From the IMG/VR virus record IMGVR_UViG_3300021961_000206, positions 1-41,947 of that record: 41,947 bases of DNA; one strand, given 5' to 3'. This document shows positions 873-32,834 of this stretch, in pieces (position 1 is the first letter of the stretch; the number at the start of each line of letters is the position of its first letter). Origin of the DNA: a virus. The translations under genes and the position numbers were made by a program. A model generated the notes under the pieces. The model saw nothing but the letters and a program-made list of their open reading frames with translations, was not told the DNA's origin and did not search any database.

Positions 873-904
873 CTATTTGTTTGGAAAATATTTTTAAAAT
901 AAAG

Positions 905-936
905 TTGCCTGTACGGAAAATAGTATCTATCTTTAG
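905..936 (+). promoter_or_regulatory. Early promoter for the 952 gene
   Basis: TTGCC (905-909), 18 bases, TATCTTTAG (928-936). It stands nearly back to back with the leftward promoter at 842-872 and marks the divergence point of the two early arms. Confidence 0.75.
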
Positions 937-951
937 GGCAAATCAAAAGAT

Positions 952-1335
952 ATGAAACGTCCTTACAAAGTTAGATTCAATCTCGGAGCTGGAAAGAACT
1001 ACATGAAGTGGAAGGTAGAGGGTCCAGAAGGGGTAGCATACTACTCTCCAGACGAGGTTCAGATAGTAATGGGTAACTGTCAATTGAAGAGCCAGAGGAA
1101 GACGGCGGAGAAGATACTTGAAGGAGCGCATAAGACGGTTTGTGCTTGGGTTAAATGCGGAACCTTAGCAATTAAAGGAGACAGGGTTCTCAACGAAGGA
1201 TCAGCTCTTCAACTTAAATACAACCCCAGGGTACTGCCTCATTGGTTTATTAACGAGGGAGAAAATGTAGATAACAAGACTGCAATTATAATCTTCACTT
1301 CTGGCCGAAAATTATTCGCATTAAAGAGTTGCTAG
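952..1335 (+). CDS. Hypothetical early protein, 127 aa
   Basis: A 127-residue, rather basic protein beginning MKRPYKVRFNLGAGKNYMKW. The N-terminal half alternates hydrophobic and charged residues like a beta-sheet protein (KWKVEGPEGVAYYSPDEVQI), followed by CQLKSQRKTAEKILEG and a C-terminal part with several Cys. I cannot assign a function. It has its own promoter (905-936). Its 3' end overlaps the -33 box of the next promoter, so the early genes are packed with shared borders. Confidence 0.8.
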   Translation: MKRPYKVRFNLGAGKNYMKWKVEGPEGVAYYSPDEVQIVMGNCQLKSQRKTAEKILEGAHKTVCAWVKCGTLAIKGDRVLNEGSALQLKYNPRVLPHWFINEGENVDNKTAIIIFTSGRKLFALKSC

Positions 1336-1360
1336 TTCGGAATAAAGTATCTATCTTTAG
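1329..1360 (+). promoter_or_regulatory. Early promoter for the 1382 gene
   Basis: TTGCT (1329-1333), 18 bases, TATCTTTAG (1352-1360). The -33 box overlaps the last codons of the upstream gene. Confidence 0.7.
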
Positions 1361-1381
1361 TGCAAATCAAAAATCAAAGTT

Positions 1382-1675
1382 ATGTTAAAAAATGCATTAC
1401 CCGAAATCAAAGGAAGATTGCTTCATCATTTTTTTGAAACTTATTCCGGAATGAATAGTTACGAAGAAGACGGAAAAACGAAAACTGACTATGAAGAATT
1501 TTTTATAGAAATTAAAAACTGTATTCAAGAAATTATAGCAATTCATTCCGTTTCAGATTTGGATGTGTTTTGTGAAGAGTGGGGATTGAATGAATTGGAT
1601 AGTCAATTTGACTTGTCGTTTTATAATTTAGCTAAAGAATATTTAGAAGTAAAATATTCAGAAAATAAAAAATAA
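1382..1675 (+). CDS. Hypothetical acidic early protein, 97 aa
   Basis: A 97-residue acidic, probably helical protein (MLKNALPEIKGRLLHHFFET...). It is rich in Glu and Asp (EEDGKTKTDYEEFF, CEEWGLNELDSQFDL) and has no motif I recognise. Its AT-richness is higher than that of its neighbours. It is preceded by a full early promoter and the standard ATCAAAGTTATG leader, which fixes the start. Confidence 0.8.
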   Translation: MLKNALPEIKGRLLHHFFETYSGMNSYEEDGKTKTDYEEFFIEIKNCIQEIIAIHSVSDLDVFCEEWGLNELDSQFDLSFYNLAKEYLEVKYSENKK

Positions 1676-1677
1676 AG

Positions 1678-1709
1678 TTGCTAGTTTGGAATAAAGTATC
1701 TATCTTTAG
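1678..1709 (+). promoter_or_regulatory. Early promoter for the 1731 gene
   Basis: TTGCT (1678-1682), 18 bases, TATCTTTAG (1701-1709). The whole block from here to the ATG is nearly identical to the block before the 1382 gene. Confidence 0.75.
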
Positions 1710-1730
1710 TGCAAATCAAAAATCAAAGTT

Positions 1731-2018
1731 ATGAAATTATTTGAAAAGACTTATCCGTTCGGATTTTCTGTCTCCAAGTACAAAGGGGATAAGGACTACA
1801 CTATTACAGGTAACCTTACAAGAGAGTATTGCTTTAGGGAGTACGGCAGCAACTACGACGTTGAGGAGTATATCCAGAAGCATATTCCTTGTCGCGGTAT
1901 TCACTTCGACTCAGAGTTCTCTCAATTCTTTGCCTATGCCAGGACTGAGAAGAGAGCTATAAAGTTCTGCGAAGATATCCAGGCTTGGTTCGACAAGGTA
2001 AAAAAGTTGGTTGATTAG
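1731..2018 (+). CDS. Hypothetical early protein, 95 aa
   Basis: A 95-residue protein (MKLFEKTYPFGFSVSKYKGD...) with many aromatic residues and a helical C-terminus (EKRAIKFCEDIQAWFDKVKKL). No family recognised. The start is set by the invariant leader ATCAAAGTTATG directly upstream. Its transcript would end at the hairpin built into the next promoter (2034-2055). Confidence 0.8.
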   Translation: MKLFEKTYPFGFSVSKYKGDKDYTITGNLTREYCFREYGSNYDVEEYIQKHIPCRGIHFDSEFSQFFAYARTEKRAIKFCEDIQAWFDKVKKLVD

Positions 2019-2031
2019 TAGTAGAATAAAG

Positions 2032-2063
2032 TTGCCTCTTCGGAGGCTTCTTTTTACCTTTAT
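2032..2063 (+). promoter_or_regulatory. Early promoter with embedded terminator hairpin
   Basis: TTGCC (2032-2036), 18 bases, TACCTTTAT (2055-2063). The spacer holds GCCTC-TTCG-GAGGC (2034-2047) followed by TTCTTTTT, which is a textbook terminator for the upstream gene. The -33 box forms part of the 5' arm of the hairpin. Confidence 0.75.
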
Positions 2064-2081
2064 GGCAAATTAAAAGATAAT

Positions 2082-2231
2082 ATGCTTAATAGATTATTCA
2101 CTAAGTTTGTAAATTGTTTAGTATGCCGTAGGGGGTATACTATTACCTTCCTTCCGAGGGAAAACACAAAGCAGGTTCCTTGTCCTCATTGCGGAGCACA
2201 TAATAATTTTAGTAAAAATAATTCAAAATAA
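2082..2231 (+). CDS. Small zinc-ribbon protein, 49 aa
   Basis: A 49-residue protein, MLNRLFTKFVNCLVCRRGYT..., with two Cys pairs: CLVC at residues 12-15 and CPHCG at 34-38, spaced as in a zinc ribbon. The tail is Asn/Lys-rich. Such single zinc-ribbon proteins often bind nucleic acid or partner proteins; here the exact role is unknown. Start: ATG 2082 follows the promoter at 2032-2063 by 18 bases. The stop codon at 2229-2231 lies a few bases before the next promoter. Confidence 0.75.
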   Translation: MLNRLFTKFVNCLVCRRGYTITFLPRENTKQVPCPHCGAHNNFSKNNSK

Positions 2232-2233
2232 AG

Positions 2234-2265
2234 TTGCCAGTTCGGAATAAAGTATTTATCTTTAG
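2234..2265 (+). promoter_or_regulatory. Early promoter for the 2303 gene
   Basis: TTGCC (2234-2238), 18 bases, TATCTTTAG (2257-2265). The leader to ATG 2303 is longer than usual and AT-rich. Confidence 0.75.
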
Positions 2266-2302
2266 GTTGTTAATTAATTATTAAACAATAAAAATCGAAG
2301 TT

Positions 2303-2752
2303 ATGCCAAGAACATCTACAAGTTCAGAGACGCTTATCAAAATCTCTAATGCTTTAAAAGCTTTACAACAGGATTTATCCTATGCAGAATTTAGAAGGTT
2401 TAATGTTAGAGAGTATCCAAAAAGGTTCTCTATAACAACTACTTTTACTACAATTCTTAGAAACTTAGGAGCTATAGAATCTAATCCTGCAAAAAGAGGA
2501 GAAGTTAGATTAACTCCTAAAATGTTAACTCTTACTCCAAAAGCTGTTATTAAAAGTATTAACTCCTATCAAAAACAAAGTAGGAAAAGGACTTTAAATG
2601 TAACAAAAAGGATGCAATTACAGTATTCTAAAAAAGTTCCAAAAATCCCTGCTCCTACTACAGATCTATCTTTAGATACTTTAATAGTAGTTTTAAAGGA
2701 GAAAATCAAAAAGGAAGTTATGTCAGAGCTTTTAAACTCCCTGACAAAATAG
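2303..2752 (+). CDS. Hypothetical basic early protein, 149 aa
   Basis: A 149-residue, strongly basic protein (MPRTSTSSETLIKISNALKA...). Residues about 1-80 could form a small winged-helix-like domain (LIKISNALKALQQDL, ITTTFTTILRNLGAIES, KRGEVRLTPKML). The C-terminal third is a Lys/Glu-rich helix (IVVLKEKIKKEVMSELL). Its basic charge and the layout suggest nucleic-acid binding, but I cannot name a family. It is followed by a strong terminator (2772-2799). Confidence 0.8.
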   Translation: MPRTSTSSETLIKISNALKALQQDLSYAEFRRFNVREYPKRFSITTTFTTILRNLGAIESNPAKRGEVRLTPKMLTLTPKAVIKSINSYQKQSRKRTLNVTKRMQLQYSKKVPKIPAPTTDLSLDTLIVVLKEKIKKEVMSELLNSLTK

Positions 2753-2771
2753 TAGATGTAGATTAATAAGT

Positions 2772-2799
2772 AGGGGGGAGAAATCCCTCCTCTTTTTTT
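2772..2799 (+). terminator. Rho-independent terminator after the 2303 gene
   Basis: AGGGGGG pairs with CCCTCCT around AGAAAT, followed by a run of T. The promoter that follows (2821-2852) lacks its own hairpin. Confidence 0.85.
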
Positions 2800-2820
2800 A
2801 AGAAAAAGTTTAAAATAAAG

Positions 2821-2852
2821 TTGCCTTTTCGGAAAATACTGCTTATCTTTAG
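2821..2852 (+). promoter_or_regulatory. Early promoter for the 2873 gene
   Basis: TTGCC (2821-2825), 18 bases, TATCTTTAG (2844-2852), with the common TTCGGAAAATA core in the spacer but no hairpin. Confidence 0.75.
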
Positions 2853-2872
2853 TGTAATAAAAAATCAAAATC

Positions 2873-3178
2873 ATGAAAATTATTCCACGTATCGAAGTTA
2901 GAGAGAAGCTTAGCAATTTGAAAAACGGAACAATCTATTCTGTAACGTTTGTTAAGAAGGACGGAAGCATTAGGGTAATGAATTCTATCAAAGGGACTCA
3001 TAAAGGAGTTACTGGTGGAGGATTAAAATTCGATGCTGATGAGAAAGGATTGATTCCAGTTTATGATTTGCAGCTTGCACGGAAAGGAGAGGCAGAAAAT
3101 AAATGCTGGAGGATGGTAAACATAAATACTGTTCAAAGTATTTCAGTCAATCACGAAACGTTTTCAATAGAGGGTTAG
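2873..3178 (+). CDS. SH3 beta-barrel-like phage protein
   Basis: A 101-residue protein. The pattern EKLSNLKNGTIYSVTFVKKDGSIR..N near the N-terminus, a GGGLKFDADEKGLIPVYDLQ stretch in the middle and a strand-rich C-terminus resemble the small 'SH3 beta-barrel fold-containing protein' annotated in many Bacteroidetes phages. In that family the signature is NLPNGTIFSVTFIKKDGT followed by G-rich and L.VYD segments. The role is unknown; it may be a host takeover or nucleic-acid-binding accessory protein. The assignment rests on remembered sequence pattern. Confidence 0.6.
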   Translation: MKIIPRIEVREKLSNLKNGTIYSVTFVKKDGSIRVMNSIKGTHKGVTGGGLKFDADEKGLIPVYDLQLARKGEAENKCWRMVNINTVQSISVNHETFSIEG

Positions 3179-3187
3179 GAAATGGAG

Positions 3188-3219
3188 TTGGCCCTTCGGG
3201 GCCTTCTTTTTATCTTTAG
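3188..3219 (+). promoter_or_regulatory. Early promoter with embedded terminator hairpin
   Basis: TTGGC (3188-3192), 18 bases, TATCTTTAG (3211-3219). The spacer carries GGCCC-TTCG-GGGCC (3190-3203) followed by TTCTTTTT. The -33 box has changed from TTGCC to TTGGC and the hairpin arms are still paired, which argues that pairing is kept by selection. Confidence 0.75.
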
Positions 3220-3239
3220 CGCAAATAAAAATCAAAGTT

Positions 3240-3677
3240 ATGGATCTTAGTCTTGAAGCCGCAACTAGACTCTCTGGTGTGGTAGCCAACTTACAAACGC
3301 TAGGCGTTAATGGCGAAATTATGCAATTTATTATCGAGCAGGTAGGAATGAAAGAGCAATTCTACAGAAGGAAGTGTACTAGTGCTACCTCAGACGATGT
3401 TATTCAAGCAATCGTTGAAGAGTATCAAGTTGATCCTGAGTTTGTTGTGTCTAAAAGTAGAGACAGAAGATTTATTGACTCTCGAGCAGCTCTCTGTTAT
3501 ATCCTCTACAGCTATCTAAATTGGACTTTAGTAGAGATAGGGAAGCTTCTTGGCGGAAGGGATCATACGACTGTTATGCATAATAGGGAATGCTTCCGTA
3601 GGTTATATTATTCTGATGAAGCTTACAAAGAAAGAGCAGATAGGGTTTTGAGAAAGTTGGCAATAAAGGTAAAATAA
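3240..3677 (+). CDS. Orphan DnaA domain IV protein (origin-box-binding HTH)
   Basis: A 145-residue protein whose C-terminal half is the DnaA DNA-binding domain (domain IV). Residues about 80-140 contain DSRAALCYILYSYLNWTLVE followed by IGKLLGGRDHTTVMHN, the DnaA signature GGRDHTTV(M/L)H. In DnaA this helix-turn-helix reads the DnaA box in the replication origin. The AAA+ ATPase domain (domain III) is absent, so it cannot melt an origin alone. Residues 1-75 are a helical region of unknown type. It could compete with host DnaA for DnaA boxes, repress host genes, or mark a phage origin. Full-length DnaA is about 450 residues, so this is a stand-alone domain and not a truncation artefact: it has its own promoter, start and stop. 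Confidence 0.85.
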   Translation: MDLSLEAATRLSGVVANLQTLGVNGEIMQFIIEQVGMKEQFYRRKCTSATSDDVIQAIVEEYQVDPEFVVSKSRDRRFIDSRAALCYILYSYLNWTLVEIGKLLGGRDHTTVMHNRECFRRLYYSDEAYKERADRVLRKLAIKVK

Positions 3678-3679
3678 AG

Positions 3680-3711
3680 TTGCCTAACTGGAAACTAGTT
3701 CGTATCTTTAG
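3680..3711 (+). promoter_or_regulatory. Early promoter for the 3734 gene
   Basis: TTGCC (3680-3684), 18 bases, TATCTTTAG (3703-3711). It begins two bases after the stop of the DnaA-like gene. Confidence 0.7.
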
Positions 3712-3733
3712 TGTAATAAAAAAAATCAAAGTT

Positions 3734-3922
3734 ATGAAAAGTATTCTAGAGTTAGTTAGCACAGTTTCGTTCGGCGTATTATGCATTACGATGTTAGTTG
3801 CATTATCTTTTGATGGTCCAGTAGAATTTGACATAGTCGGTAAGCTATTACTAGTACTACTGGTTGGTAGTATGCTCGGTACTATAATACCTCTTATAAT
3901 AGCTAAGAGTCGAGAAATATAG
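3734..3922 (+). CDS. Small membrane protein, 62 aa
   Basis: A 62-residue protein from ATG 3734, chosen because it follows the promoter and leader ATCAAAGTTATG; an upstream in-frame ATG at 3680 lies inside the promoter. Two hydrophobic segments (about residues 7-25, VSTVSFGVLCITMLVALSF, and 37-56, KLLLVLLVGSMLGTIIPLII) suggest two membrane helices with a short loop. No family recognised. It could modify the host membrane during early infection. Confidence 0.7.
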   Translation: MKSILELVSTVSFGVLCITMLVALSFDGPVEFDIVGKLLLVLLVGSMLGTIIPLIIAKSREI

Positions 3923-3923
3923 T

Positions 3924-3954
3924 TTGCCCTTCGGGACTTTCTTCTTATCTTTAG
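3924..3954 (+). promoter_or_regulatory. Early promoter for the 3975 gene
   Basis: TTGCC (3924-3928), 17 bases, TATCTTTAG (3946-3954). The CCC-TTCG-GG hairpin core remains but the stem is broken by a mismatch. This is the only early promoter here with a 17-base spacer. Confidence 0.65.
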
Positions 3955-3974
3955 TGCAAATCAAAATCAAAGTT

Positions 3975-4160
3975 ATGACTATCGAATTAATCAAAGAGTA
4001 TTCTAAGACAGGAGGTGTTTCCTATCATGTCAAAGTAGACGGTGTTTTTGTTAGCGGAACTGTATGCTTCGATCTTCCGAATGCTATGGAAGCGTATGAC
4101 AGGGTTAGAGACAATGCAACGAAAGAACGTTCAGAAACGTTGATAAGAGAATTAATCTAA
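3975..4160 (+). CDS. Hypothetical protein, 61 aa
   Basis: A 61-residue protein from ATG 3975, chosen because it follows the standard leader; the open frame extends upstream through the promoter to 3924. Sequence MTIELIKEYSKTGGVSYHVK... has a beta-strand N-terminus (SYHVKVDGVFVSGTVCF) and a charged helix at the end. No family recognised. Confidence 0.75.
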   Translation: MTIELIKEYSKTGGVSYHVKVDGVFVSGTVCFDLPNAMEAYDRVRDNATKERSETLIRELI

Positions 4161-4166
4161 TAATAG

Positions 4167-4198
4167 TTAGCCCTTCGGGGCTTTCTCTTTATCTTTAG
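4167..4198 (+). promoter_or_regulatory. Early promoter with embedded terminator hairpin
   Basis: TTAGC (4167-4171), 18 bases, TATCTTTAG (4190-4198). The spacer holds AGCCC-TTCG-GGGCT (4169-4182) followed by TTCTCTTT. The -33 box is mutated (TTAG for TTGC) but base pairing with the downstream arm is kept. Confidence 0.65.
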
Positions 4199-4218
4199 TT
4201 AACCAAAAAATAAAAGTT

Positions 4219-4386
4219 ATGACGAAAGAATTACTCTACGATGCAATCCAATGCTTCGGCGACCGGATCGTTAAAGAAACTCTCAGTGTTGTTCATGTTT
4301 CAGATCCTGATTGCGCTTACACTACCTTCCAAGACATGGGAATGGATGAATGTGCTGAATGTGTAGAAATGTTATTTTTTTCATAG
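4219..4386 (+). CDS. Small hypothetical protein, 55 aa
   Basis: A 55-residue protein from ATG 4219 to TAG 4386 (MTKELLYDAIQCFGDRIVKE...). Four Cys residues, two of them close together near the C-terminus (DECAEC), could bind a metal, although there is no clear zinc-ribbon spacing. No family recognised. It is followed after 18 bases by the 4405 gene, with no promoter between, so the two form one operon. Confidence 0.65.
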   Translation: MTKELLYDAIQCFGDRIVKETLSVVHVSDPDCAYTTFQDMGMDECAECVEMLFFS

Positions 4387-4404
4387 AATTAAAACAGAGT
4401 AATA

Positions 4405-4620
4405 ATGATGAACAAGACCTTTAGAGCTCGTTGTACTGCTCTTGAGAGCGGGTATATAAATCCAGACCTAGTAGAAATCTATAATGTAGAAGATCCTACT
4501 GAATGGTATCCTACTGGTAGAAATCAATTTAGAATTAATCAGACATTAACTCCTGAGGATTTTTACTTAGTACCGTATCGGTATGGCGATGAAACGTGGA
4601 TGATAGCTTATAGAAAATAA
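4405..4620 (+). CDS. Hypothetical protein, 71 aa
   Basis: A 71-residue protein with two adjacent ATG codons at its start (MMNKTFRARCTALESGYINP...). It is rich in Tyr, Trp and Pro and has no motif I recognise. It lacks a promoter of its own and is probably co-transcribed with the 4219 gene. The second ATG (4408) could equally be the start. Confidence 0.7.
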   Translation: MMNKTFRARCTALESGYINPDLVEIYNVEDPTEWYPTGRNQFRINQTLTPEDFYLVPYRYGDETWMIAYRK

Positions 4621-4642
4621 TTTGAAAAATTTAAAAAAAAAG

Positions 4643-4674
4643 TTGCCTCTTCGGAAAATAGTTATTACCTTTAG
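4643..4674 (+). promoter_or_regulatory. Early promoter for the 4704 gene
   Basis: TTGCC (4643-4647), 18 bases, TACCTTTAG (4666-4674), with the TCTTCGGAAAATAGTT core but no hairpin. Confidence 0.75.
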
Positions 4675-4703
4675 TGTATTAACAAACCAAAAAAATCAAA
4701 GTT

Positions 4704-5039
4704 ATGAAAAAGCAAGAATTAATTGATCAGCTTACCAGCAGTGCCTCACTCGAATTTGCCTTTATGCCTATTAGTAAAGTAGTTTCACTTCTCGAGCAGC
4801 TTGATGAATCTCCTTCCTCTTCTGGCCTGACTAAGGAAGATATTGAGGAATTAGCCCAGAACATTGCTGAGAGAATAAGCTCAGAAGGAATGAGTCTTAT
4901 TGACGATTACGATCTTTCGATAAGCGGTAGAGAAGTAGAACTCGATAACGTTGAATTCCATGAAAGGCGAATTGCTAGCGAAGTATTAGGTGAAATAGAA
5001 ACTTTCTTTGAAGATAGAGGAGAAAGAGATATGGATTAG
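4704..5039 (+). CDS. Hypothetical acidic protein, 111 aa
   Basis: A 111-residue, strongly acidic, mostly helical protein (MKKQELIDQLTSSASLEFAF...). The middle reads LTKEDIEELAQNIAERISSE and the end carries EDRGERDMD. Acidic small early proteins in phages are sometimes DNA mimics or inhibitors, but nothing specific supports that here. Followed by a long terminator hairpin (5049-5097). Confidence 0.8.
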   Translation: MKKQELIDQLTSSASLEFAFMPISKVVSLLEQLDESPSSSGLTKEDIEELAQNIAERISSEGMSLIDDYDLSISGREVELDNVEFHERRIASEVLGEIETFFEDRGERDMD

Positions 5040-5048
5040 ACTTTGATT

Positions 5049-5097
5049 CCCTGGCAGGCGTTTGCAAGTGCAATGTAAGTCCTGTTTGGGTTTTTAT
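5049..5097 (+). terminator. Terminator after the 4704 gene
   Basis: CCCTGGCAGG pairs with CCTGTTTGGG (one mismatch and two G-T pairs). An inner TTGC-AAGT-GCAA hairpin sits in the loop and TTTTT follows. It is longer and more complex than the other terminators here. Confidence 0.6.
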
Positions 5098-5117
5098 AGA
5101 AAAAACTAAAAAAATAG

Positions 5118-5149
5118 TTGCCTAATCGGAAATTAGTTTTTACCTTTAG
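5118..5149 (+). promoter_or_regulatory. Early promoter for the 5171 gene
   Basis: TTGCC (5118-5122), 18 bases, TACCTTTAG (5141-5149). The spacer is AT-rich with a TCGGAA core. Confidence 0.75.
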
Positions 5150-5170
5150 TGCAAATAAAAAATCAAAGTT

Positions 5171-5368
5171 ATGAATCTAGAATGTATTAAAGGAATTGCA
5201 GACAAGGACAATATTAGCGTAGTTTGTATGCAGGGGGATATTGTTAAAGTGGTTGAGACTAGTGAAGGAGAAATTCTTGTAAACGGAGTTTCTGGATGGT
5301 GTAAGGAATTTGAACTAACCTTCACTCCGAAAGAATTGGTTGAATATTTTAAGTTTAAGAGGTTTTAG
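5171..5368 (+). CDS. Hypothetical protein, 65 aa
   Basis: A 65-residue protein (MNLECIKGIADKDNISVVCM...) that looks like a small beta-barrel: alternating hydrophobic strands SVVCMQGDIVKVVE, GEILVNGVSGW and EFELTFTPKELVEYF. Similar small proteins with a KGDIVKV turn occur in many phages without known function. Own promoter and standard leader. Confidence 0.75.
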   Translation: MNLECIKGIADKDNISVVCMQGDIVKVVETSEGEILVNGVSGWCKEFELTFTPKELVEYFKFKRF

Positions 5369-5383
5369 AAATTAAAAAAATAG

Positions 5384-5415
5384 TTGCCTAATCGGAAATT
5401 AGTTTTTATCTTTAG
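5384..5415 (+). promoter_or_regulatory. Early promoter for the 5437 gene
   Basis: TTGCC (5384-5388), 18 bases, TATCTTTAG (5407-5415). The block is almost a copy of the one at 5118-5149, including the flanking ATAG and the spacer. Confidence 0.75.
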
Positions 5416-5436
5416 TGTAAATAAAAAATCAAAGTT

Positions 5437-5700
5437 ATGGATTACTTACTGTTAAAAGCAAAAGATGATTTAGTTGAACGTGCAATGCAAGTTTATCTTG
5501 ATCGTAGATCTGAAATTGAATTTGTAGAATATGCAGATCATTTCAAAGACCTGGGATCGGTTATTGCTTCTATCGACGAACTTAAATCTCTTTCAGAATT
5601 GACTTCTGCTTTAGAAAAAGGAAAATTTGAAGTATTAGGTTTATTTCCATCCGACGAAGACATGTTTGAAGAATTCTTCCGCGGAATTACTGCCGCTTAA
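5437..5700 (+). CDS. Hypothetical acidic protein, 87 aa
   Basis: An 87-residue, acidic, helical protein (MDYLLLKAKDDLVERAMQVY...), ending EDMFEEFFRGITAA. No family recognised. It shares a transcript with the 5714 gene, which follows after 13 bases. Confidence 0.75.
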   Translation: MDYLLLKAKDDLVERAMQVYLDRRSEIEFVEYADHFKDLGSVIASIDELKSLSELTSALEKGKFEVLGLFPSDEDMFEEFFRGITAA

Positions 5701-5713
5701 AATTACATTTTCT

Positions 5714-5941
5714 ATGCAATTAATTTTCCGTACCCGTGAAAGCTACCTTGCCGAAAGATTGAATCTACAAATGTTAGATACAGAAGAATTACAAACGTTA
5801 TTAAAAGATTTATACCATAAGAGATATGTTGATCAGGATATAAATTATGAATCTGCTTACCGACTCGCTTCTTCCGTTTACGTTCATAGGACTCGAGAGA
5901 ATTACCCTTTAGTCTTTCATATGAAAAACTTTATAGGATAG
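5714..5941 (+). CDS. Hypothetical protein, 75 aa
   Basis: A 75-residue protein from ATG 5714 (MQLIFRTRESYLAERLNLQM...). The frame is open upstream to an ATG at 5666 inside the previous gene, but the 5714 start avoids the overlap and gives a natural N-terminus. The protein is helical, with a stretch TEELQTLLKDLYHKRYVDQD followed by a second helical part. No family recognised. No promoter of its own; operon with 5437. Confidence 0.65.
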   Translation: MQLIFRTRESYLAERLNLQMLDTEELQTLLKDLYHKRYVDQDINYESAYRLASSVYVHRTRENYPLVFHMKNFIG

Positions 5942-5971
5942 TTGGTAAAATGAAAAAAATTTCTTAATTTG
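5942..5971 (+). promoter_or_regulatory. Putative second-class promoter for the 5997 gene
   Basis: TTGGT (5942-5946), 17 bases containing ATGAAAAAAA, then TTAATTTG (5964-5971). It lacks TATCTTTAG but shares its layout and poly-A core with the element at 12833-12862. The -7 is close to the Bacteroidetes consensus TAnnTTTG. Confidence 0.45.
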
Positions 5972-5996
5972 AATTATAACCAAAAAACATATTGTT

Positions 5997-6221
5997 ATGG
6001 CATTTCAAAAACTCAACACCGTTTACAAGATCGTAGCTTATACGGAAGCTAAACGACACGGTGACGTTACTCGCATTGCTCTAGAGACTGGTTTCACTCC
6101 AGCAATGGTATCCATGACCCTTCGTGGACTCCGCAACAATGAATCTATCGTAAACAAAGCTTATCGCCTTGTGAAGGATAGGCAAACGAACTTGCAGAGG
6201 CTTACAACAGCTACTGCTTAA
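5997..6221 (+). CDS. Small HTH-like protein, 74 aa
   Basis: A 74-residue basic protein. Residues about 8-48 contain KIVAYTEAKRHGDVTRIALE followed by TGFTPAMVSMTLRGLRNN, a good match in shape to a helix-turn-helix: helix, GDVTRIALETGFTPAMVS turn and recognition helix. It is probably a DNA-binding regulator. It is expressed from a different promoter type than its neighbours and ends at a strong terminator, so it is an independent unit. It could control the switch between early and later transcription; this is inference. Confidence 0.7.
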   Translation: MAFQKLNTVYKIVAYTEAKRHGDVTRIALETGFTPAMVSMTLRGLRNNESIVNKAYRLVKDRQTNLQRLTTATA

Positions 6222-6244
6222 GATTCATACTTTTGATTTTAAAC

Positions 6245-6277
6245 GAGCCGATGTTTCTACATCAGGCTCTTTTTTTG
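6245..6277 (+). terminator. Rho-independent terminator after the 5997 gene
   Basis: GAGCC-GATGT pairs with ACATC-A-GGCTC around TTCT, followed by seven T. Confidence 0.9.
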
Positions 6278-6290
6278 TTTAAAAATAAAG

Positions 6291-6322
6291 TTGCCGAAAT
6301 GGAAATAGGTTCGTACCTTTAG
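6291..6322 (+). promoter_or_regulatory. Early promoter for the 6322-6407 element
   Basis: TTGCC (6291-6295), 18 bases, TACCTTTAG (6314-6322). It is followed by an 80-base stretch with no normal gene and then another promoter. Confidence 0.75.
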
Positions 6323-6407
6323 TGGGTCATCAGGACAGGCGCCCGAAAAGAAAGGGTGGAGAGATCAGACGGAGGTTACACGAAAGTTTTTCTTTGTAGT
6401 TTTTTAA
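6322..6407 (+). ncRNA. Candidate small RNA (or basic microprotein)
   Basis: About 85 bases between a full early promoter and the next promoter, ending in a hairpin and T-run (6383-6407), so it looks like a discrete short transcript. CGCCC (6340-6344) can pair with GGGTG (6354-6358). It shares AAAAGAA, AAGGGYGG and GATCAGACG with the leftward element at 541-626. The usual ATCAAAGTTATG leader is missing. A 25-codon frame from GTG 6322 to TAG 6399 would give an Arg/Lys-rich peptide (PKRKGGEIRRR in the middle), so a microprotein is the alternative. Confidence 0.5.
6383..6407 (+). terminator. Terminator of the 6322 element
   Basis: ACACGAAAG pairs, with bulges, to CTTTGTAGT, followed by six T. 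Confidence 0.55.
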
Positions 6408-6415
6408 AAAAAAAG

Positions 6416-6447
6416 TTGCCGAAATGGAATAAAGGCCTTATCTTTAG
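6416..6447 (+). promoter_or_regulatory. Early promoter for the 6469 gene
   Basis: TTGCC (6416-6420), 18 bases, TATCTTTAG (6439-6447). Confidence 0.75.
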
Positions 6448-6468
6448 GTATAATTAAAAATCAAAGAT

Positions 6469-6663
6469 ATGAGCACACAATTAGTACAAGAAGCATTAGA
6501 TTTATTCGTTCAAACAATGCCGTTAGAAGATATGGCTGCTGACCATCCGATGTTTGATCAGTTGTATGATAAAGAGTGTAAGATATTTGAATTGTTTGGT
6601 CATATGACAGAGGATGAACATAACGCATATCGTAAAGCGGTTCAAGCATTACGCGGTCATTGA
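6469..6663 (+). CDS. Hypothetical acidic protein, 64 aa
   Basis: A 64-residue acidic helical protein (MSTQLVQEALDLFVQTMPLE...) with a C-terminal helix HMTEDEHNAYRKAVQALRGH. It has no recognised family. Its last codons form the left arm of the terminator at 6652-6680, so gene end and terminator overlap, as at 162. Confidence 0.75.
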   Translation: MSTQLVQEALDLFVQTMPLEDMAADHPMFDQLYDKECKIFELFGHMTEDEHNAYRKAVQALRGH

Positions 6664-6680
6664 TCGACCGCGACTCTTTT
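6652..6680 (+). terminator. Terminator overlapping the end of the 6469 gene
   Basis: CGCGGTC (6652-6658) pairs perfectly with GACCGCG (6666-6672), followed by ACTCTTTT. A second hairpin follows in the promoter at 6691. Confidence 0.7.
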
Positions 6681-6690
6681 CAAAAAAAAG

Positions 6691-6722
6691 TTGCCTCTTC
6701 GGAGGCTTCTTTCTACCTTTAG
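6691..6722 (+). promoter_or_regulatory. Early promoter with embedded terminator hairpin
   Basis: TTGCC (6691-6695), 18 bases, TACCTTTAG (6714-6722). GCCTC-TTCG-GAGGC (6693-6706) plus TTCTTTC lies in the spacer. Confidence 0.75.
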
Positions 6723-6743
6723 TGCAAATCAAAAATCAAAGTT

Positions 6744-7088
6744 ATGAAATTCGAAATTGCTAGTCTACGCGCTGAGTATGAGCCTTATCGTTCAAGGAAG
6801 AATGAACCTTTCAAAGCAGCCAATAAGATGTATATTTGGCCTGAAGGAGAATCTGTTCTAAACAATCTCTATAACCGCCATGATCGTCCTGCTAAGATTT
6901 GGAAGGAAGAGTTGATACCAGCTATCCTTGAGAAGTTAAAAGAAACTGATCCTAGTATCTATGAAGCAGTAAAGGATGAGAAGTGGGGTTGGAGACAGAA
7001 GTGCGGATGCTCATGTCCTTGTTCCCCTGGCTTCGTCGGAGCTAAAGGAGGGCAATATAGCATTTCAGCAAGTATAAAATTTAGTTGA
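6744..7088 (+). CDS. Hypothetical protein with Cys cluster, 114 aa
   Basis: A 114-residue basic protein. The N-terminal part reads MKFEIASLRAEYEPYRSRKN and EPFKAANKMYIWPEGESV. The C-terminal part has KWGWRQKCGCSCPCSPGF, four Cys within seven residues, probably a metal site. Proteins of this layout with GCSCxCSPGF occur as conserved phage hypotheticals; I do not know a function. Start set by the promoter and the standard leader. Confidence 0.75.
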   Translation: MKFEIASLRAEYEPYRSRKNEPFKAANKMYIWPEGESVLNNLYNRHDRPAKIWKEELIPAILEKLKETDPSIYEAVKDEKWGWRQKCGCSCPCSPGFVGAKGGQYSISASIKFS

Positions 7089-7095
7089 AAAAAGG

Positions 7096-7127
7096 TTGCC
7101 TCTTCGGAGGCTCCTTCCTATCTTTAG
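7096..7127 (+). promoter_or_regulatory. Early promoter with embedded hairpin
   Basis: TTGCC (7096-7100), 18 bases, TATCTTTAG (7119-7127). GCCTC-TTCG-GAGGC (7098-7111) lies in the spacer, with a weaker T-tract (TCCTTCC). Confidence 0.75.
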
Positions 7128-7148
7128 TGCAAATCAAAAATCAAAGTT

Positions 7149-7370
7149 ATGGAACAAATCAAAACCTTGCTAGAAAGAGCTACTTCAGAGTTAAGAGAGA
7201 AGATGGAAGCTTACGAAGAGAGTTATCCTAGTTCAGGAGCTGCTCTTAGAACAACACTCTCAAAACACTACTTCGTTTCAGACCTTCCTTATGGATATGT
7301 AATTGACATTGAAAGTCTTTACCTAGGAAAGAAGGTTAATATCTTCGATAAATTTCGAACTATTAATTGA
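7149..7370 (+). CDS. Hypothetical protein, 73 aa
   Basis: A 73-residue protein (MEQIKTLLERATSELREKME...) with an N-terminal amphipathic, Glu-rich helix, possibly a coiled coil over residues 1-25, then a mixed C-terminal part. No family recognised. Own promoter; its stop is followed directly by the next hairpin promoter. Confidence 0.75.
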   Translation: MEQIKTLLERATSELREKMEAYEESYPSSGAALRTTLSKHYFVSDLPYGYVIDIESLYLGKKVNIFDKFRTIN

Positions 7371-7376
7371 AAAGAG

Positions 7377-7408
7377 TTGCCTCTTCGGAGGCTTCTTTCT
7401 ATCTTTAT
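7377..7408 (+). promoter_or_regulatory. Early promoter with embedded terminator hairpin
   Basis: TTGCC (7377-7381), 18 bases, TATCTTTAT (7400-7408). GCCTC-TTCG-GAGGC (7379-7392) followed by TTCTTTC. The block is nearly identical to those at 2032 and 6691. Confidence 0.75.
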
Positions 7409-7429
7409 GGCAAATCAAAAATAAAAGTT

Positions 7430-8236
7430 ATGAAAAGTTCATTAAAAATGACAGCACTGACTCTCGAAGAGGTTAAGCAAAATGCTCCTCAAGCCTTCGC
7501 CTCTGCTCCTAGGCCTGGTGTATCCAAGAAGTACTCTTTCCTTCCTACCTCTCGTATCATCGAAGATATGGATAGGTTGGGATGGAAAGTATCTCAAGCC
7601 AAGACTAATCGTTCACGTACTGAAGTAGCTAGGGAGTTTGGTAATCATGTTATCAAGTTCTTTCATCCAGAAGTATTCATCAAAGATCAAGACGGAAACG
7701 TTGAATCTTATATCAACATCGTTGTGATGAATAATCATATGGGTATGGGTAGCTTTAAATTTGAATTGGGTATCTTTCGCCTGGTATGCTCTAACGGCCT
7801 TGTTGTTAAGGATAAGGATATGGGAGGCTTTAATCTTCGTCATAGCGGCTATTCTTTCGAAGAGCTTCAGACTACTCTCAATCAAGCCATTGAGCGTTTG
7901 CCTGACTTGGTAGGCCGTATCAATCAATTCAACCAGATCATTATGTCTAAGGAAGCACAGAGAGAGTTCGCTCAGAAAGCTTTCGCTCTTAGGTCCTATC
8001 AAGATAGGATGATGACTGAGGAAGAGTTGACTGAGTTCCTTACTCCAAGAAGGAAAGAAGATCAAGGCGATAGTCTTTGGACAGTTCTGAATAGAGTTCA
8101 AGAGAGCGTATTGCAGGGTGGTTACCATATCACTAATAAGAAGAATAAGATACGCAGGGCTAAGTCGATTAAGAATATCCAGAAGGATGTTCAACTCAAT
8201 CAACAGATCTGGGAACTGGGCATGCAGTATGCCTGA
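7430..8236 (+). CDS. DUF932-family phage/plasmid-like protein
   Basis: A 268-residue protein from ATG 7430, chosen because it follows the promoter and leader; the frame is open upstream to 7367 through the promoter. The order of motifs fits the DUF932 (TIGR03299-like) family: an N-terminal region with KYSFLPTSRIIEDMDRLGWK, the central FELGIFRLVCSNGLVV and a late VLNRVQESVLQGG. The family is widespread on plasmids and phages; its biochemical role is not established. At 268 residues it is near the usual length. It has stronger codon-level GC than its small neighbours. It is followed by a terminator. Confidence 0.85.
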   Translation: MKSSLKMTALTLEEVKQNAPQAFASAPRPGVSKKYSFLPTSRIIEDMDRLGWKVSQAKTNRSRTEVAREFGNHVIKFFHPEVFIKDQDGNVESYINIVVMNNHMGMGSFKFELGIFRLVCSNGLVVKDKDMGGFNLRHSGYSFEELQTTLNQAIERLPDLVGRINQFNQIIMSKEAQREFAQKAFALRSYQDRMMTEEELTEFLTPRRKEDQGDSLWTVLNRVQESVLQGGYHITNKKNKIRRAKSIKNIQKDVQLNQQIWELGMQYA

Positions 8237-8247
8237 TAAGAGATAGA

Positions 8248-8279
8248 AGAGAGCCGGTTAAGGCCGGCCTCTTTCTTTT
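8248..8279 (+). terminator. Terminator after the DUF932 gene
   Basis: AGAG-A-GCCGG pairs with CCGGC-CTCT around TTAAGG, followed by TTCTTTT. The T-tract runs straight into the -33 TTGC of the next promoter. Confidence 0.8.
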
Positions 8280-8309
8280 GCTAGTCCGGTATTAATTATG
8301 TATCTTTAG
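8278..8309 (+). promoter_or_regulatory. Early promoter for the 8328 gene
   Basis: TTGCT (8278-8282), 18 bases, TATCTTTAG (8301-8309). The spacer has TCCGG but otherwise differs from the common core. Confidence 0.7.
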
Positions 8310-8327
8310 TGTATTAAAATCAATAAC

Positions 8328-8540
8328 ATGATCACAACATCAGTAGAGAGATTAGAACAAATAGAGCAAGAACGTCAAGAAGTATTCGCCGATGTAGCCT
8401 TCCAAGAATGGATGAAAGAGCTAGGGGTAAGTAGATTGGCTAGTAAGCCTGTAGATAGGTCTAGGTATATGATGAGCCTCTGGACGGATAAGAATGGTAT
8501 GAGGAATAGTTTCAACCGTGTAATCAATAATCTAAAATAA
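8328..8540 (+). CDS. Hypothetical protein, 70 aa
   Basis: A 70-residue charged helical protein (MITTSVERLEQIEQERQEVF...) with an N-terminal coiled-coil-like helix and a basic C-terminus (GMRNSFNRVINNLK). No family recognised. First gene of a two-gene operon with 8546. Confidence 0.75.
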   Translation: MITTSVERLEQIEQERQEVFADVAFQEWMKELGVSRLASKPVDRSRYMMSLWTDKNGMRNSFNRVINNLK

Positions 8541-8545
8541 CAGTT

Positions 8546-8911
8546 ATGACAGAAAAGTACATCAGTACCCTAGCCGTGGCCTTTGACATGAATGAAGAAG
8601 ACGCCTACACTTTAGTTAAGGACAAGCTAACCGCTAACAACCTTACGAGCTTCTTGGAGATGATTACTACCCAAGACTCAATCAACGGAAAGACTACTAC
8701 CGAAGTGATTGAAGACCTAACCACTCAATACAAAGTGTATGGTGAAGTCAAACAAAGACTCCTCAGGGTATCTTCCTTCGCTAAGAGGTTTAATCAAGGT
8801 AACTACCTTATCGTTACTAGTAATGATACCTCTGCAGTGAGAGACGGTATAGCGATAGGAGACATGACAAACGGTAAGGCGCTAGTAAAAAAAGCCTATA
8901 AGATCGGATAA
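8546..8911 (+). CDS. Hypothetical protein, 121 aa
   Basis: A 121-residue protein (MTEKYISTLAVAFDMNEEDA...) with a helical first half and a second half with strands (GNYLIVTSNDTSAVRDGIAI). No motif recognised. It starts 5 bases after the stop of the 8328 gene, so the two are co-transcribed. Confidence 0.75.
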   Translation: MTEKYISTLAVAFDMNEEDAYTLVKDKLTANNLTSFLEMITTQDSINGKTTTEVIEDLTTQYKVYGEVKQRLLRVSSFAKRFNQGNYLIVTSNDTSAVRDGIAIGDMTNGKALVKKAYKIG

Positions 8912-8915
8912 AGAG

Positions 8916-8947
8916 TTGGCGGCCTGAAATATGGCCGCTACCTTTAG
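8916..8947 (+). promoter_or_regulatory. Early promoter with perfect GC-rich inverted repeat in the spacer
   Basis: TTGGC (8916-8920), 18 bases, TACCTTTAG (8939-8947). GCGGCC (8919-8924) pairs with GGCCGC (8933-8938) around TGAAATAT. There is no T-tract, so it is not a normal terminator. Confidence 0.7.
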
Positions 8948-9103
8948 GTCGCAGATGAAGACAGTCGTAGGCAGGTGAGGGCAGATGATGGCAGTATAAC
9001 ACCACCGTAATTACAGCTACTAACGGGGTGATAGCGAAAACCGCTGCGCTGAGTGATGAAATACCCTCGGGCGAAATTTCTAATAACCTAAAAATATATA
9101 TCA
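8948..9103 (+). ncRNA. Structured 155-base leader of the 9104 gene
   Basis: All other early genes here have leaders of about 15-40 bases; this one is about 155. It contains three GCAG-started 10-base units in tandem (about 8970-9000), a stem CACC-A-CCGT/ACGG-GGTG (about 9000-9031) and a small AGCG/CGCT hairpin (about 9032-9045). Only very short open frames are present. It could be a regulatory leader or a separate small RNA. I cannot match it to a known riboswitch. Confidence 0.45.
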
Positions 9104-10171: not shown

Positions 10172-10417
10172 ATGGCATTGAGTAATAAATCATCTAGATT
10201 CGCTTCACCGGCAACGGAAAATCCTTTAAATAATAGTTATCAAACTTCTTTATTCGAGGAGAAGGCAGGGTCTCTCTCTGCTTATGCTGGTTTTGAAGCT
10301 AATAATAACGGTATGGTACCGGGCGGTACTTTAGAGTATACTTCTCCTCCCGTTCCTACAACCACCACTACAACGACGACTACTACTAGTACTACAACCA
10401 CCACAACAACTGTATAA
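10172..10417 (+). CDS. Small structural-type protein with Thr-rich C-terminus
   Basis: An 81-residue protein. Residues 1-60 (MALSNKSSRFASPATENPLN...) are Ser/Asn/Gly-rich, as in phage virion proteins. Residues about 63-80 are almost pure Thr with one Ser, after a Pro (PVPTTTT...). The Thr codons are mixed (ACC, ACT, ACA, ACG), so the tract is kept at protein level and is not simple DNA slippage. The tail resembles the mucin-like stalk of the 29951 protein and may be glycosylated or act as a linker. No known family. Confidence 0.65.
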   Translation: MALSNKSSRFASPATENPLNNSYQTSLFEEKAGSLSAYAGFEANNNGMVPGGTLEYTSPPVPTTTTTTTTTTSTTTTTTTV

Positions 10418-14274: not shown

Positions 14275-14547
14275 ATGGTATTTGGATGGATAATGGTCGC
14301 CTTATGGGCACTAACTGTAGTAGGTTGGATTATTTTTAACCTATATCGTAAAAACGAAAAATTAGAGAACACTGTAATTAATCAAGCTAACTTTATTGGA
14401 GGGCTACAGTCCTTAATAGGAGAGTCCGATAAAGCATTGAAGAACTTAGATGATAAGATATGGATGGAGAGTGATACAGAACTACAAACAGTATTTCAGA
14501 ATCTAAAAGCAATTCAAGAAGCACTAAATCAATTTAACAGAGGGTAA
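14275..14547 (+). CDS. Single-span membrane protein with coiled coil, 90 aa
   Basis: A 90-residue protein: one N-terminal hydrophobic segment (GWIMVALWALTVVGWIIF, about residues 4-21) followed by Lys/Arg and a helical, coiled-coil-like domain to the end. The topology fits a small membrane-anchored protein with a cytoplasmic or periplasmic rod. A spanin or lysis-related role is possible but not shown by the sequence. It starts 1 base after the HD gene and overlaps the sigma gene by 1 base. Confidence 0.7.
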   Translation: MVFGWIMVALWALTVVGWIIFNLYRKNEKLENTVINQANFIGGLQSLIGESDKALKNLDDKIWMESDTELQTVFQNLKAIQEALNQFNRG

Positions 14548-15320
14548 TGGTAGAAGATATTTTTAAGGTAGAAGAGGCGGAAGTTACACTTACCAAAGAC
14601 GGTAAAGTCAGAAAAAGGAGACCTAAAAAATCTATAGACTACTTTACCTTAGAAACACAACAAGCTATTATAGATTATAGAAAAGAAAAATCTCAAGTTA
14701 AAAGAGATCAAATTTTTAACGAAAAGATCTACTATGCTTTTTATAAATTAGCTGAAAATATTATTCATACGTTTAAGTTTTATTATACGGAAGTTAATAA
14801 TATTAACGAACTTAAACATGAAGTAATTGCTTTTCTTCTCGAAAAATTACACCTTTACGATCAAACTAAAGGAAAAGCTTACTCCTATTTCGGAACTATT
14901 GCTAAGAGGTATCTTATCGTTTATAACAATAATAACTATAAAAGATTAAAAGGTAGAGCAGCAGTAGAGGATGTAGATACCGATAAAACCATTACTAACG
15001 AGCTACTAAGTAACGATTCAAGTCTCTTAGAAGAACTGACCTTTATTGATTTATTTATTCAGAGAATAGATAAAGACTTATTAGAGTTATTCCCAAAACC
15101 ACAAGAAGCTCGAGTTGGAGATGCTATTTTAGAGTTGTTTAAGCGAAGAGAGAATATTGATATCTTCAATAAAAAAGCGCTCTTCATCTACATAAAGGAG
15201 ATTACTGATGCACCTACTCCAGTCATCACTAAGGTAATAAAAGTATTAAAGGAAGTCTACAAGGAGATGCTTAACGAATATCTAGAGAAAGGGACTAATT
15301 TCGATATTTTTTCTCGCTAG
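14547..15320 (+). CDS. Late-transcription sigma factor, gp55-like
   Basis: A 257-residue protein with the features of T4 gp55-type sigma factors: a basic N-terminus (KVRKRRPKKSIDYFTLETQQ), and residues about 87-135 with LKHEVIAFLLEKLHLYD followed by KGKAYSYFGTIAKRYLIVYN, the region 2-like core that binds RNA polymerase and the promoter -10. In T4, gp55 directs the host polymerase to late promoters. Its presence here just upstream of the structural module supports late transcription of that module. It is preceded by a TM-protein gene and followed by a TATTTATT boundary motif. Confidence 0.85.
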   Translation: MVEDIFKVEEAEVTLTKDGKVRKRRPKKSIDYFTLETQQAIIDYRKEKSQVKRDQIFNEKIYYAFYKLAENIIHTFKFYYTEVNNINELKHEVIAFLLEKLHLYDQTKGKAYSYFGTIAKRYLIVYNNNNYKRLKGRAAVEDVDTDKTITNELLSNDSSLLEELTFIDLFIQRIDKDLLELFPKPQEARVGDAILELFKRRENIDIFNKKALFIYIKEITDAPTPVITKVIKVLKEVYKEMLNEYLEKGTNFDIFSR

Positions 15321-29950: not shown

Positions 29951-31318
29951 ATGAGTAGATCATCAAATAGCCTTAAAACATCTGATGTCATTACTACTCC
30001 GATCAAACTGGTATACACTTCGTCGTACGACTGTAGTACACTTGCGGAGTATGGAATGGAGGTTTTGAGTGGAGTGAATGGCCCTGTGACTATAACAGGC
30101 TCTGTTCCACAAGAGACTTTAAACTATTGGTCTACTAGACATCTTTACTATTCTAACTACCTTACCGGATCATTTCCAGTTTCTGCTTCAAGCGCAGATA
30201 ACTTTTTACAGTCTACAGCTGCTTCCGGTTCTTTAGATTCAGATAATAGGTATTTTCCTACTGAATCAAATGCCCGTATAACTATATTGTCGGTACCGAG
30301 AGGAGTATTTGGCGAAAAGATTGCTAAGAGTAATTTTATACTCTCTTCTTCTGCTTACTATATAATAGATGACGGAAACGGTAACCTTATAGATCAAGCA
30401 TCAGGAAGTCTGCATGTAGGCAATATTATTTATCCACAAGGAATGGTTATTTTTACCAATCCTAATTATTTGGATATTTTACCATGTCCTACCGGGTCAA
30501 CTACTACGACAACCTCTACTACAAGTACAACGACTACTGCTGTTCCGACAACTACTACAACTTCTACTACAAGTACTACGACTACTGCTGCTCCGACAAC
30601 CACAACTACGAGCACAACTACTAGTACAACAACAGAGGTACCTACCACGACTACTACTAGTACGACTACTAGTACAACAACAGCAGAACCTACTACGACA
30701 ACTACTAGTACAACAACGAGCACAACAACTTGTGCTCCACAGAATGCGCAAAGTATGTACTATAATTACGATACTGGATTACCTACAATGTTCGGAACCG
30801 GTTCTGCCGAAGCCGCTTGTAATTTATCAGTTAGTGCTTCTACCATATACTATAATACTTCGTTAGCGCTTACTACAGGCACACCTTTATACTATGATGA
30901 ATGTCTTACTGTACCAATAACAGCTAGTGCTTATACAGATACTCCTCAACAATACTTTAAAATTGGTCCATACTACGTAAATTTTGAAACTGATGGATAT
31001 ACTGTAAGAAGTGTAACAGCTTGTCCTACTCCGACTACAACCACCACTACATCTACAACTACTAGTACAACTACGGTAACATATACTTACTATGCTGTAG
31101 ACAGGTATACTTGTGATTCACCATCAGGACCTTGTACTTTCGCTGAATCAACCTTTATAGCAAACACTTCTAGCGGGTTAACTCTAGGTAATTACTACTT
31201 AGATGTACCTTCAGGAAACATTTATAATATCACGTCTACTACAAGTAGTGGCGCTTATTTTATAACATATCTATCTGGAGCTGGTACTGCCAACTGTAGT
31301 GTTCTTTGTTCAGCTTAA
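29951..31318 (+). CDS. Virion protein with a mucin-like Thr/Ser/Pro repeat stalk
   Basis: A 455-residue protein in four parts. Residues 1-183 are a beta-rich Ser/Tyr domain. Residues 184-263 are five tandem units of exactly 16 residues of the type TTTTTSTTTSTTTAEP. Then comes a Cys-containing domain (about 264-358), a second Thr tract (about 360-377) and a second Cys-containing domain ending in CSVLCSA. The Thr codons are mixed, so the repeats are selected at protein level. This is the shape of a mucin stalk: Ser/Thr-dense, Pro-spaced, without bulky residues. The next three genes look like glycan-building enzymes, so the stalk is a candidate for O-glycosylation. Role in host contact is inferred. 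Confidence 0.75.
   Translation: MSRSSNSLKTSDVITTPIKLVYTSSYDCSTLAEYGMEVLSGVNGPVTITGSVPQETLNYWSTRHLYYSNYLTGSFPVSASSADNFLQSTAASGSLDSDNRYFPTESNARITILSVPRGVFGEKIAKSNFILSSSAYYIIDDGNGNLIDQASGSLHVGNIIYPQGMVIFTNPNYLDILPCPTGSTTTTTSTTSTTTTAVPTTTTTSTTSTTTTAAPTTTTTSTTTSTTTEVPTTTTTSTTTSTTTAEPTTTTTSTTTSTTTCAPQNAQSMYYNYDTGLPTMFGTGSAEAACNLSVSASTIYYNTSLALTTGTPLYYDECLTVPITASAYTDTPQQYFKIGPYYVNFETDGYTVRSVTACPTPTTTTTTSTTTSTTTVTYTYYAVDRYTCDSPSGPCTFAESTFIANTSSGLTLGNYYLDVPSGNIYNITSTTSSGAYFITYLSGAGTANCSVLCSA
30500..30739 (+). repeat. Five tandem 48-base units encoding 16-residue Thr/Ser repeats
   Basis: The 240-base block codes for five 16-residue units ending in AVP, AAP, EVP, AEP and CAP. Synonymous codons differ between units, but the unit length is exact. 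Confidence 0.9.
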
Positions 31319-32333: not shown

Positions 32334-32833
32334 TACATTCAGAAAATCCTTTAGAGCATTGGTCTGATATAAAAGACGTGGAAGGGAAAGTAGTTTTAGA
32401 TTTAGGTTGCGGATGGTTATTTCAGCCGCATGAATCGACTCCAGAATACCTAATAAATCGGGGTGCTAGTAAAGTTGTAGGAGTGGATGTAGCTTGTGGC
32501 GAAATCGAGCAGCTAAAAGAAAAGTACCCTGGACACGTCTTTGTATGTAAAGCAGTTACAAGCGTAGAAAGTCTTTTAGAACTTCTAGTTGAATATCAAC
32601 CCTCCGTAATTAAAATGGATATAGAAGGTCATGAAGCTCATATGCAGTATATAACAGCAGAGCAATTTTCTTGTGTAGAAGAGATTGCTGTTGAATATCA
32701 TAACCCAGAATGTAAAAGAATATTGACTGAAAAATTAGATGAATTTGGTTTTGAGATTTTCTCAATAAACCAGTTCGGATGGTTTTGTACTGATATTAAT
32801 CAGATGGGAATAATGCACGCTAAAAGAAAATAA
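32315..32833 (+). CDS. FkbM-type SAM-dependent methyltransferase
   Basis: A 172-residue protein with class I methyltransferase motifs: VVLDLGCGW (residues 26-34, SAM-binding loop), KVVGVDVACGE (motif II) and IKMDIEGHE (residues 99-107), which is the FkbM-family DIEGxE signature. FkbM enzymes usually methylate sugar hydroxyls. It overlaps the glycosyltransferase gene by 19 bases, which suggests coupled expression and a shared substrate. The family is shorter than usual here but has all core motifs. Confidence 0.8.
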   Translation: MFNTKVVHSENPLEHWSDIKDVEGKVVLDLGCGWLFQPHESTPEYLINRGASKVVGVDVACGEIEQLKEKYPGHVFVCKAVTSVESLLELLVEYQPSVIKMDIEGHEAHMQYITAEQFSCVEEIAVEYHNPECKRILTEKLDEFGFEIFSINQFGWFCTDINQMGIMHAKRK

Positions 32834-32834
32834 A

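Follow-up and report, generated by a model that had tools for sequence, protein, structure and literature searches.

A stand-alone DnaA domain IV protein with an exchangeable viral helical module in a T4-like phage of flavobacteria-like hosts

The 41,947-nucleotide stretch of IMG/VR virus record IMGVR_UViG_3300021961_000206 analysed here (the window) encodes a stand-alone DnaA domain IV without the AAA+ motor, from a lineage specific to viruses and fused to an exchangeable viral helical module (Table 1). The protein is best explained, with a probability of roughly 0.4, as an accessory early DNA-binding protein that acts on host DnaA boxes, a reading favoured over two live but less probable rivals, a GafY-like regulator and a replication adaptor. 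We infer this target and its effect from computed features, namely the fold, the contact residues, the host-type promoter motif, a virus-only grouping, the swapped tail and the sporadic presence of the gene. Orphan DnaA domain IV proteins have already been annotated in phages and hence are not a new kind of protein. What is new, as far as could be found, is how widely the class extends in viruses, together with the viral clade, its member's fusion with a module of Flavobacterium phages and the exchange of tails; the literature consulted yielded no experimental study of a stand-alone domain IV protein from a lytic phage.

Table 1. Features of the orphan domain IV gene and its leader (window coordinates)
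Feature	Position	Strand	Basis
Bacteroidota-type promoter: GTTG at 3187-3190, TATCTTTAG at 3211-3219	3187..3219	+	Belongs to a set of about 18 repeated cassettes
Terminator-like hairpin GGCCCTTCGGGGCC, with TTCG loop and T-rich tail; overlaps the promoter	3190..3203	+	Terminator scan
Orphan DnaA domain IV gene, 145 aa	3240..3677	+	Open reading frame list; PF08299 E 1.7e-16; pLDDT 91.6
N-terminal helical module, residues 1-49	3240..3386	+	tblastn E ~1e-6 to stand-alone proteins; six invariant residues in 18 sequences
DnaA domain IV, residues 50-140	3387..3659	+	1J1V by sequence and by fold (TM 0.93, rmsd 1.1)
Signature GGRDHTTVMHN, residues 105-115, start of recognition helix	3552..3584	+	Sequence; conservation

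The open reading frame is real, and its coordinates include the stop codon. Bac_DnaA_C (PF08299) is the sole Pfam match in the protein (residues 52-115; 60.4 bits against a curated cut-off of 31.5 bits), which is itself the only PF08299 match within the 42 kb window. The solved structure that it matches best is E. coli domain IV in complex with a DnaA box (PDB 1J1V; residues 50-140, E 8.5e-8), and an AlphaFold2 model built on an alignment of 57 viral sequences (pTM 0.78) agrees with this structure over 93 columns, with the TM score of 0.93 normalised to target length. This match means that the whole of domain IV is present, starting at about residue 50. The original prediction, which described a full DnaA C-terminal helix-turn-helix with the GGRDHTTVMHN signature, was right in both the completeness of a canonical domain IV and the presence of the signature, but misplaced the boundary at residues 80-140; the N-terminal part is correspondingly about 49 residues long and not 75. 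The absence of an AAA+ domain, also predicted, is borne out: Pfam gives domain IV alone, and the full-length DnaA model TIGR00362 reaches 58.5 bits against a cut-off of 343.9, far from the score of a DnaA initiator. Lacking this domain, the protein cannot unwind an origin by itself.

In E. coli DnaA the base-contacting positions are 399, 423, 432-435 and 438-439 (PMC5043019; PMC7561715). By this numbering the window protein keeps R399 (R74), R407 (R82), R432 (R107), D433 (D108), H434 (H109), T435 (T110) and H439 (H114), and is changed at P423 (to V), Q408 (to A) and L438 (to M). Among 57 viral domain IVs, R407 is retained in all 57, R432 in 56 and R399 in 54; DHTT is invariant as well, a conservation built in by a search pattern that required DHTT, whereas that of R399 and R407 is independent of the pattern. 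Replacement of the contact residues across relatives had been named beforehand as evidence against DnaA-box binding, and the relatives show retention of R399 and R407 instead. The premise that the helix-turn-helix should bind DnaA-box-like DNA is supported by the contacts kept in the window protein, whose domain IV is a predicted sequence-specific binder of such DNA.

The N-terminal part had been called novel, a description that does not hold, as sister T4-like phages and isolated Flavobacterium phages have related modules. When the whole protein was searched against T4-like sister contigs, two matches covered its N-terminus alone, and stand-alone proteins 62-70 amino acids long can be aligned with residues 1-49. 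By profile search the module is present in 19 viral contigs, where it stands alone (mostly 60-100 amino acids), as the terminal part of proteins of roughly 140 or 190 amino acids, or inside proteins of 320-490 amino acids (L192, L195, L196 and L197). L18, G25, M28, I31, V35 and Q40 are invariant in an alignment of 18 sequences, and the window protein conforms to this motif. All 12 matches to the module in the phage collection are Flavobacterium phages, the isolated carriers being T4-like immuto phages (gp133, 70 amino acids) and elemo podophages. The module is predicted to be helical, and a PDB fold search with it returned no match. Its occurrence inside larger proteins points to a general module for interactions in these phages, and in the window protein it may likewise mediate an interaction. 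The copy in immuto gp133 (L211, 6230-6442) is annotated as an ABC-type histidine transport ATPase, probably wrongly. Another contig, L210, carries the module as a separate gene and also encodes, on the reverse complement at 1444-1731, a very short DnaA-IV-like protein (FNRDHSAVHYW) adjoining a large putative replication protein.

The closest relative, L293, shares 63% identity with the window protein over residues 50-143, whereas its first 47 residues are unrelated to the window N-tail. It belongs to the same phage group, its DUF932 and HTH proteins being 89% and 92% identical to those of the window, and its gene carries the same terminator-promoter leader. Between the two domain IVs pN is 0.25 against a saturated pS of 0.94, a pattern indicating that the domain is under purifying selection; the N-tails appear to have been swapped, since a protein so similar in domain IV has a different tail. 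The two proteins, with the same domain and different tails, therefore form a natural pair for separating the role of the domain from that of the tail.

A profile search confirmed at least 395 relatives in viral contigs. Among the best 80 of these, a Walker A motif is present in four, and another three, of 391-479 amino acids, might be DnaA-like, so that at least 73 are stand-alone proteins; the same kind of search in genomes found Walker A in 74 of 80, with the other six DnaA-like or cut. Putative stand-alone readers of DnaA boxes are spread over several hundred viral contigs. The stand-alone form also occurs in cells, one Caulobacterales genome having two. In a tree of domain IV the window protein and L293 form a pair (support 100/99) nested in a clade of 23 viral sequences (92/83) that lies apart from the sampled Bacteroidota DnaAs, on a short alignment with weak deep forks. 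Capture of the present host's dnaA finds no support in this tree. That the protein is a decayed, functionless piece of a captured host dnaA gene, as the absence of domains I-III might suggest, is highly improbable: it groups with viral orphans and not with the sampled Bacteroidota DnaAs, its fold and contact residues are intact, and the low pN relative to L293 also argues against decay. Two candidate relatives (L002 and L003) were rejected, as they share a short stretch only and have no PF08299 match. Ten of 12 'phage' matches that were opened turned out to be full-length DnaA, probably bacterial sequence in phage records (L004-L011, L014 and L015, comprising human faecal 'Bacteriophage sp.' records and a Staphylococcus phage record). 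GafA of RDJL Phi 1 was not detected by PF08299.

Within its own phage group the gene is sporadic. In ten contigs, among them the window and L293, the DUF932 early locus is covered together with 3 kb or more upstream of it, and DnaA-IV is present in the window and L293 only; the other eight (G006, G012, G016, G033, G052, G053, G054 and G059, the largest of 166 kb) are fragments, where absence from the record is not proof of absence from the phage. The N-module is found without DnaA-IV in six of these eight. An essential initiator or late activator of the phage group is unlikely, because most relatives are without the gene.

The window, 42 kb long, is a fragment of a T4-like phage with flavobacteria-like hosts. 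The baseplate protein of this phage shares 45% identity with its counterpart in Flavobacterium phage immuto (160 kb genome); the full genome is likely near 160 kb. The orphan gene sits among small genes at 0.9-9 kb, and about 18 genes of this block have GTTG ... TATCTTTAG promoter cassettes; TATCTTTA was found 18 times on the + strand against 2.5 expected. In the cassettes (GTTGCC ... TATCTTTAG, window 900-9000) the spacer often contains a GCC-TTCG-GGC hairpin, and the terminator of one gene seems to be fused to the promoter of the next. We take GTTG ... TATCTTTAG to resemble the Bacteroidota promoter type, and because of this resemblance the gene is likely to be expressed by the host polymerase. 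Its promoter motif and position point to early timing. The strong early promoter of its own that had been ascribed to the gene thus stands as a promoter motif (GTTG and TATCTTTAG), with 'strong' and 'early' being readings of motif and position. Elsewhere in the window, the protein encoded at 14547-15320 is 47% identical to immuto gp118; by eye we take it to resemble T4 gp55-type late sigma factors, and no family match to this effect was found in Pfam, PHROGs or NCBIfam. PADLOC returned no match.

Compared with DnaA domain IV itself (PF08299; 1J1V), the window protein has the same whole-domain fold, the signature and nearly all base-contacting residues, and differs in having a viral helical module in place of domains I-III and in the P423 to V and Q408 to A changes. 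Pelagibacter phage HTVC203P gp22 and a protein of Microcystis phage Mae-JY35 (XAI96573.1), annotated as DnaA or replication initiation, are similarly single domain IV proteins of 161-177 amino acids without AAA+, although their N-tails are unrelated to that of the window protein and the phages are of other types. Domain IV is also re-used outside DnaA in TnpA-REP subclass 2.1 transposases with Bac_DnaA_C, where, unlike in the window protein, it is fused to a HuH transposase, and where the flanking repeats are unlike DnaA boxes (PMC6006769). YfdR, from an E. coli cryptic prophage, is a prophage protein able to reduce host initiation, but it binds DnaA itself (for which F46 is needed) and is not described as a DnaA-box binder (PMC4776307).

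GafY, the stand-alone homologue studied in most detail, activates transcription, which makes a GafY-like regulator a serious rival to host DnaA-box binding, and one absent from the original prediction. GafY of Caulobacter, from a prophage-like element, was initially called HdaB and regarded as a regulator of replication; it was later shown to activate the gene transfer agent cluster, binding RpoD and working with IHF, and has been proposed not to act via oriC (PMC9632790; PMC11150451). GafA of Rhodobacter, which binds the RcGTA promoter, is a DnaA-like domain joined to a sigma-like one (PMC6363796). Like the window protein, GafY/HdaB and the N-terminal part of GafA (Rhodobacter capsulatus) are small, stand-alone or re-fused domain IVs in phage-derived elements; they differ in their PRK06030 family, a GafZ/DUF6456-type partner, alphaproteobacterial origin and known transcription activation. 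By analogy, the domain IV of the window protein would bind a phage or host promoter element and contact sigma or RNA polymerase with the help of the N-module, and the roughly 18 uniform promoters of the window phage could be a regulated set. However, the window protein has no match to NCBIfam PRK06030, against which a probable GafY (L368) scores 247 bits, and it gives no BLASTP alignment with that protein, in which R replaces the H434 that the window protein keeps (GRDRTTCGH). Moreover, the window, itself a fragment, contains no DUF6456 (GafZ-type) gene by PF20057, and the orphan gene is absent from most sister phages. Regulation of this kind is rather doubtful on balance; if it did apply, the orphans would constitute a widespread class of phage transcription regulators. 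The probable GafY belongs to a probable gafYZ pair of a Caulobacterales MAG (L368, 677-1773, minus strand), its stand-alone domain IV directly preceding a DUF6456 gene, which presumably marks GafZ.

A phage-directed role in replication was also considered, in which domain IV would mark a phage origin and recruit helicase or primase via the N-module. Close neighbours of the orphan genes of other phages include primosomal, DnaB-like helicase, primase, O-like and annealing-protein/recombination genes, in tallies that have no background control and are a hint only, and a primase-like gene of the window phage itself lies at 34601. However, no replication gene adjoins 3240-3677 within the window, and eight sister contigs are without the DnaA-IV gene. 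The original prediction had proposed both recruitment to a phage origin and a search of phage DNA for DnaA boxes; run on the 42 kb window, this search gave no enrichment, with 49 sites for TTATNCACA (one mismatch allowed) against 49 expected and a sole exact box, at 30430, inside a structural gene. Beside 129 viral orphan genes, TTWTNCACA was found 67 times against 93 expected and TTATCCACA four times against 8.6, with no locus having four or more DnaA boxes, and an iteron search beside the relatives yielded nothing consistent. Neither the window nor the surroundings of the relatives thus contain a DnaA-box or iteron cluster near the gene, leaving recruitment to a phage origin unsupported by the DNA covered and the replication adaptor a less probable explanation. 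The slight deficit at the 129 loci, a comparison confined to phages with the gene, is perhaps avoidance of DnaA boxes.

Under the favoured reading, action on host DnaA boxes, the host polymerase would make the protein soon after infection and domain IV would bind DnaA-box-like sites. The most likely targets would be on the host chromosome, at oriC and DnaA-controlled promoters, because the phage DNA covered, 42 kb of a genome likely near 160 kb, is without a box cluster and most sister phages are without the gene. Competition with DnaA at these sites could stop host initiation or alter DnaA-controlled transcription, while the N-module might tether the protein to itself or to a phage or host partner. 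Consistent with this are the kept contacts, the fold of a DnaA-box complex, the missing AAA+ domain, the host-type promoter, the presence in two of ten contigs, the purifying selection on a domain whose tail is exchanged and the lack of box clusters. Against it stand the changed equivalents of P423 and Q408 and the fact that DnaA-IV domains can be re-targeted, as with GafY, whose binding sites lie outside oriC (PMC11150451), and with transposases that have a DnaA-IV domain, whose flanking repeats do not resemble DnaA boxes (PMC6006769); additionally, the location of other phages' orphan genes near replication genes is compatible with a phage-directed role too. By occupying host DnaA boxes, such proteins would have a simple and generally applicable means of stopping the initiation of host replication. 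It is conceivable, albeit unlikely as a general account, that the large virus-specific lineage of motorless DnaA proteins with exchangeable N-terminal adaptors occupies host DnaA boxes as a decoy-initiator strategy against host replication, by shutdown or re-programming.

In other parts of the window, long Thr/Ser-rich repeats (TTTTTSTTTSTTTT) occur in a structural-region protein (29951-31318) and at the end of a small protein (10172-10417). The structural region also contains putative glycosyltransferase and methyltransferase genes (31338-33707).
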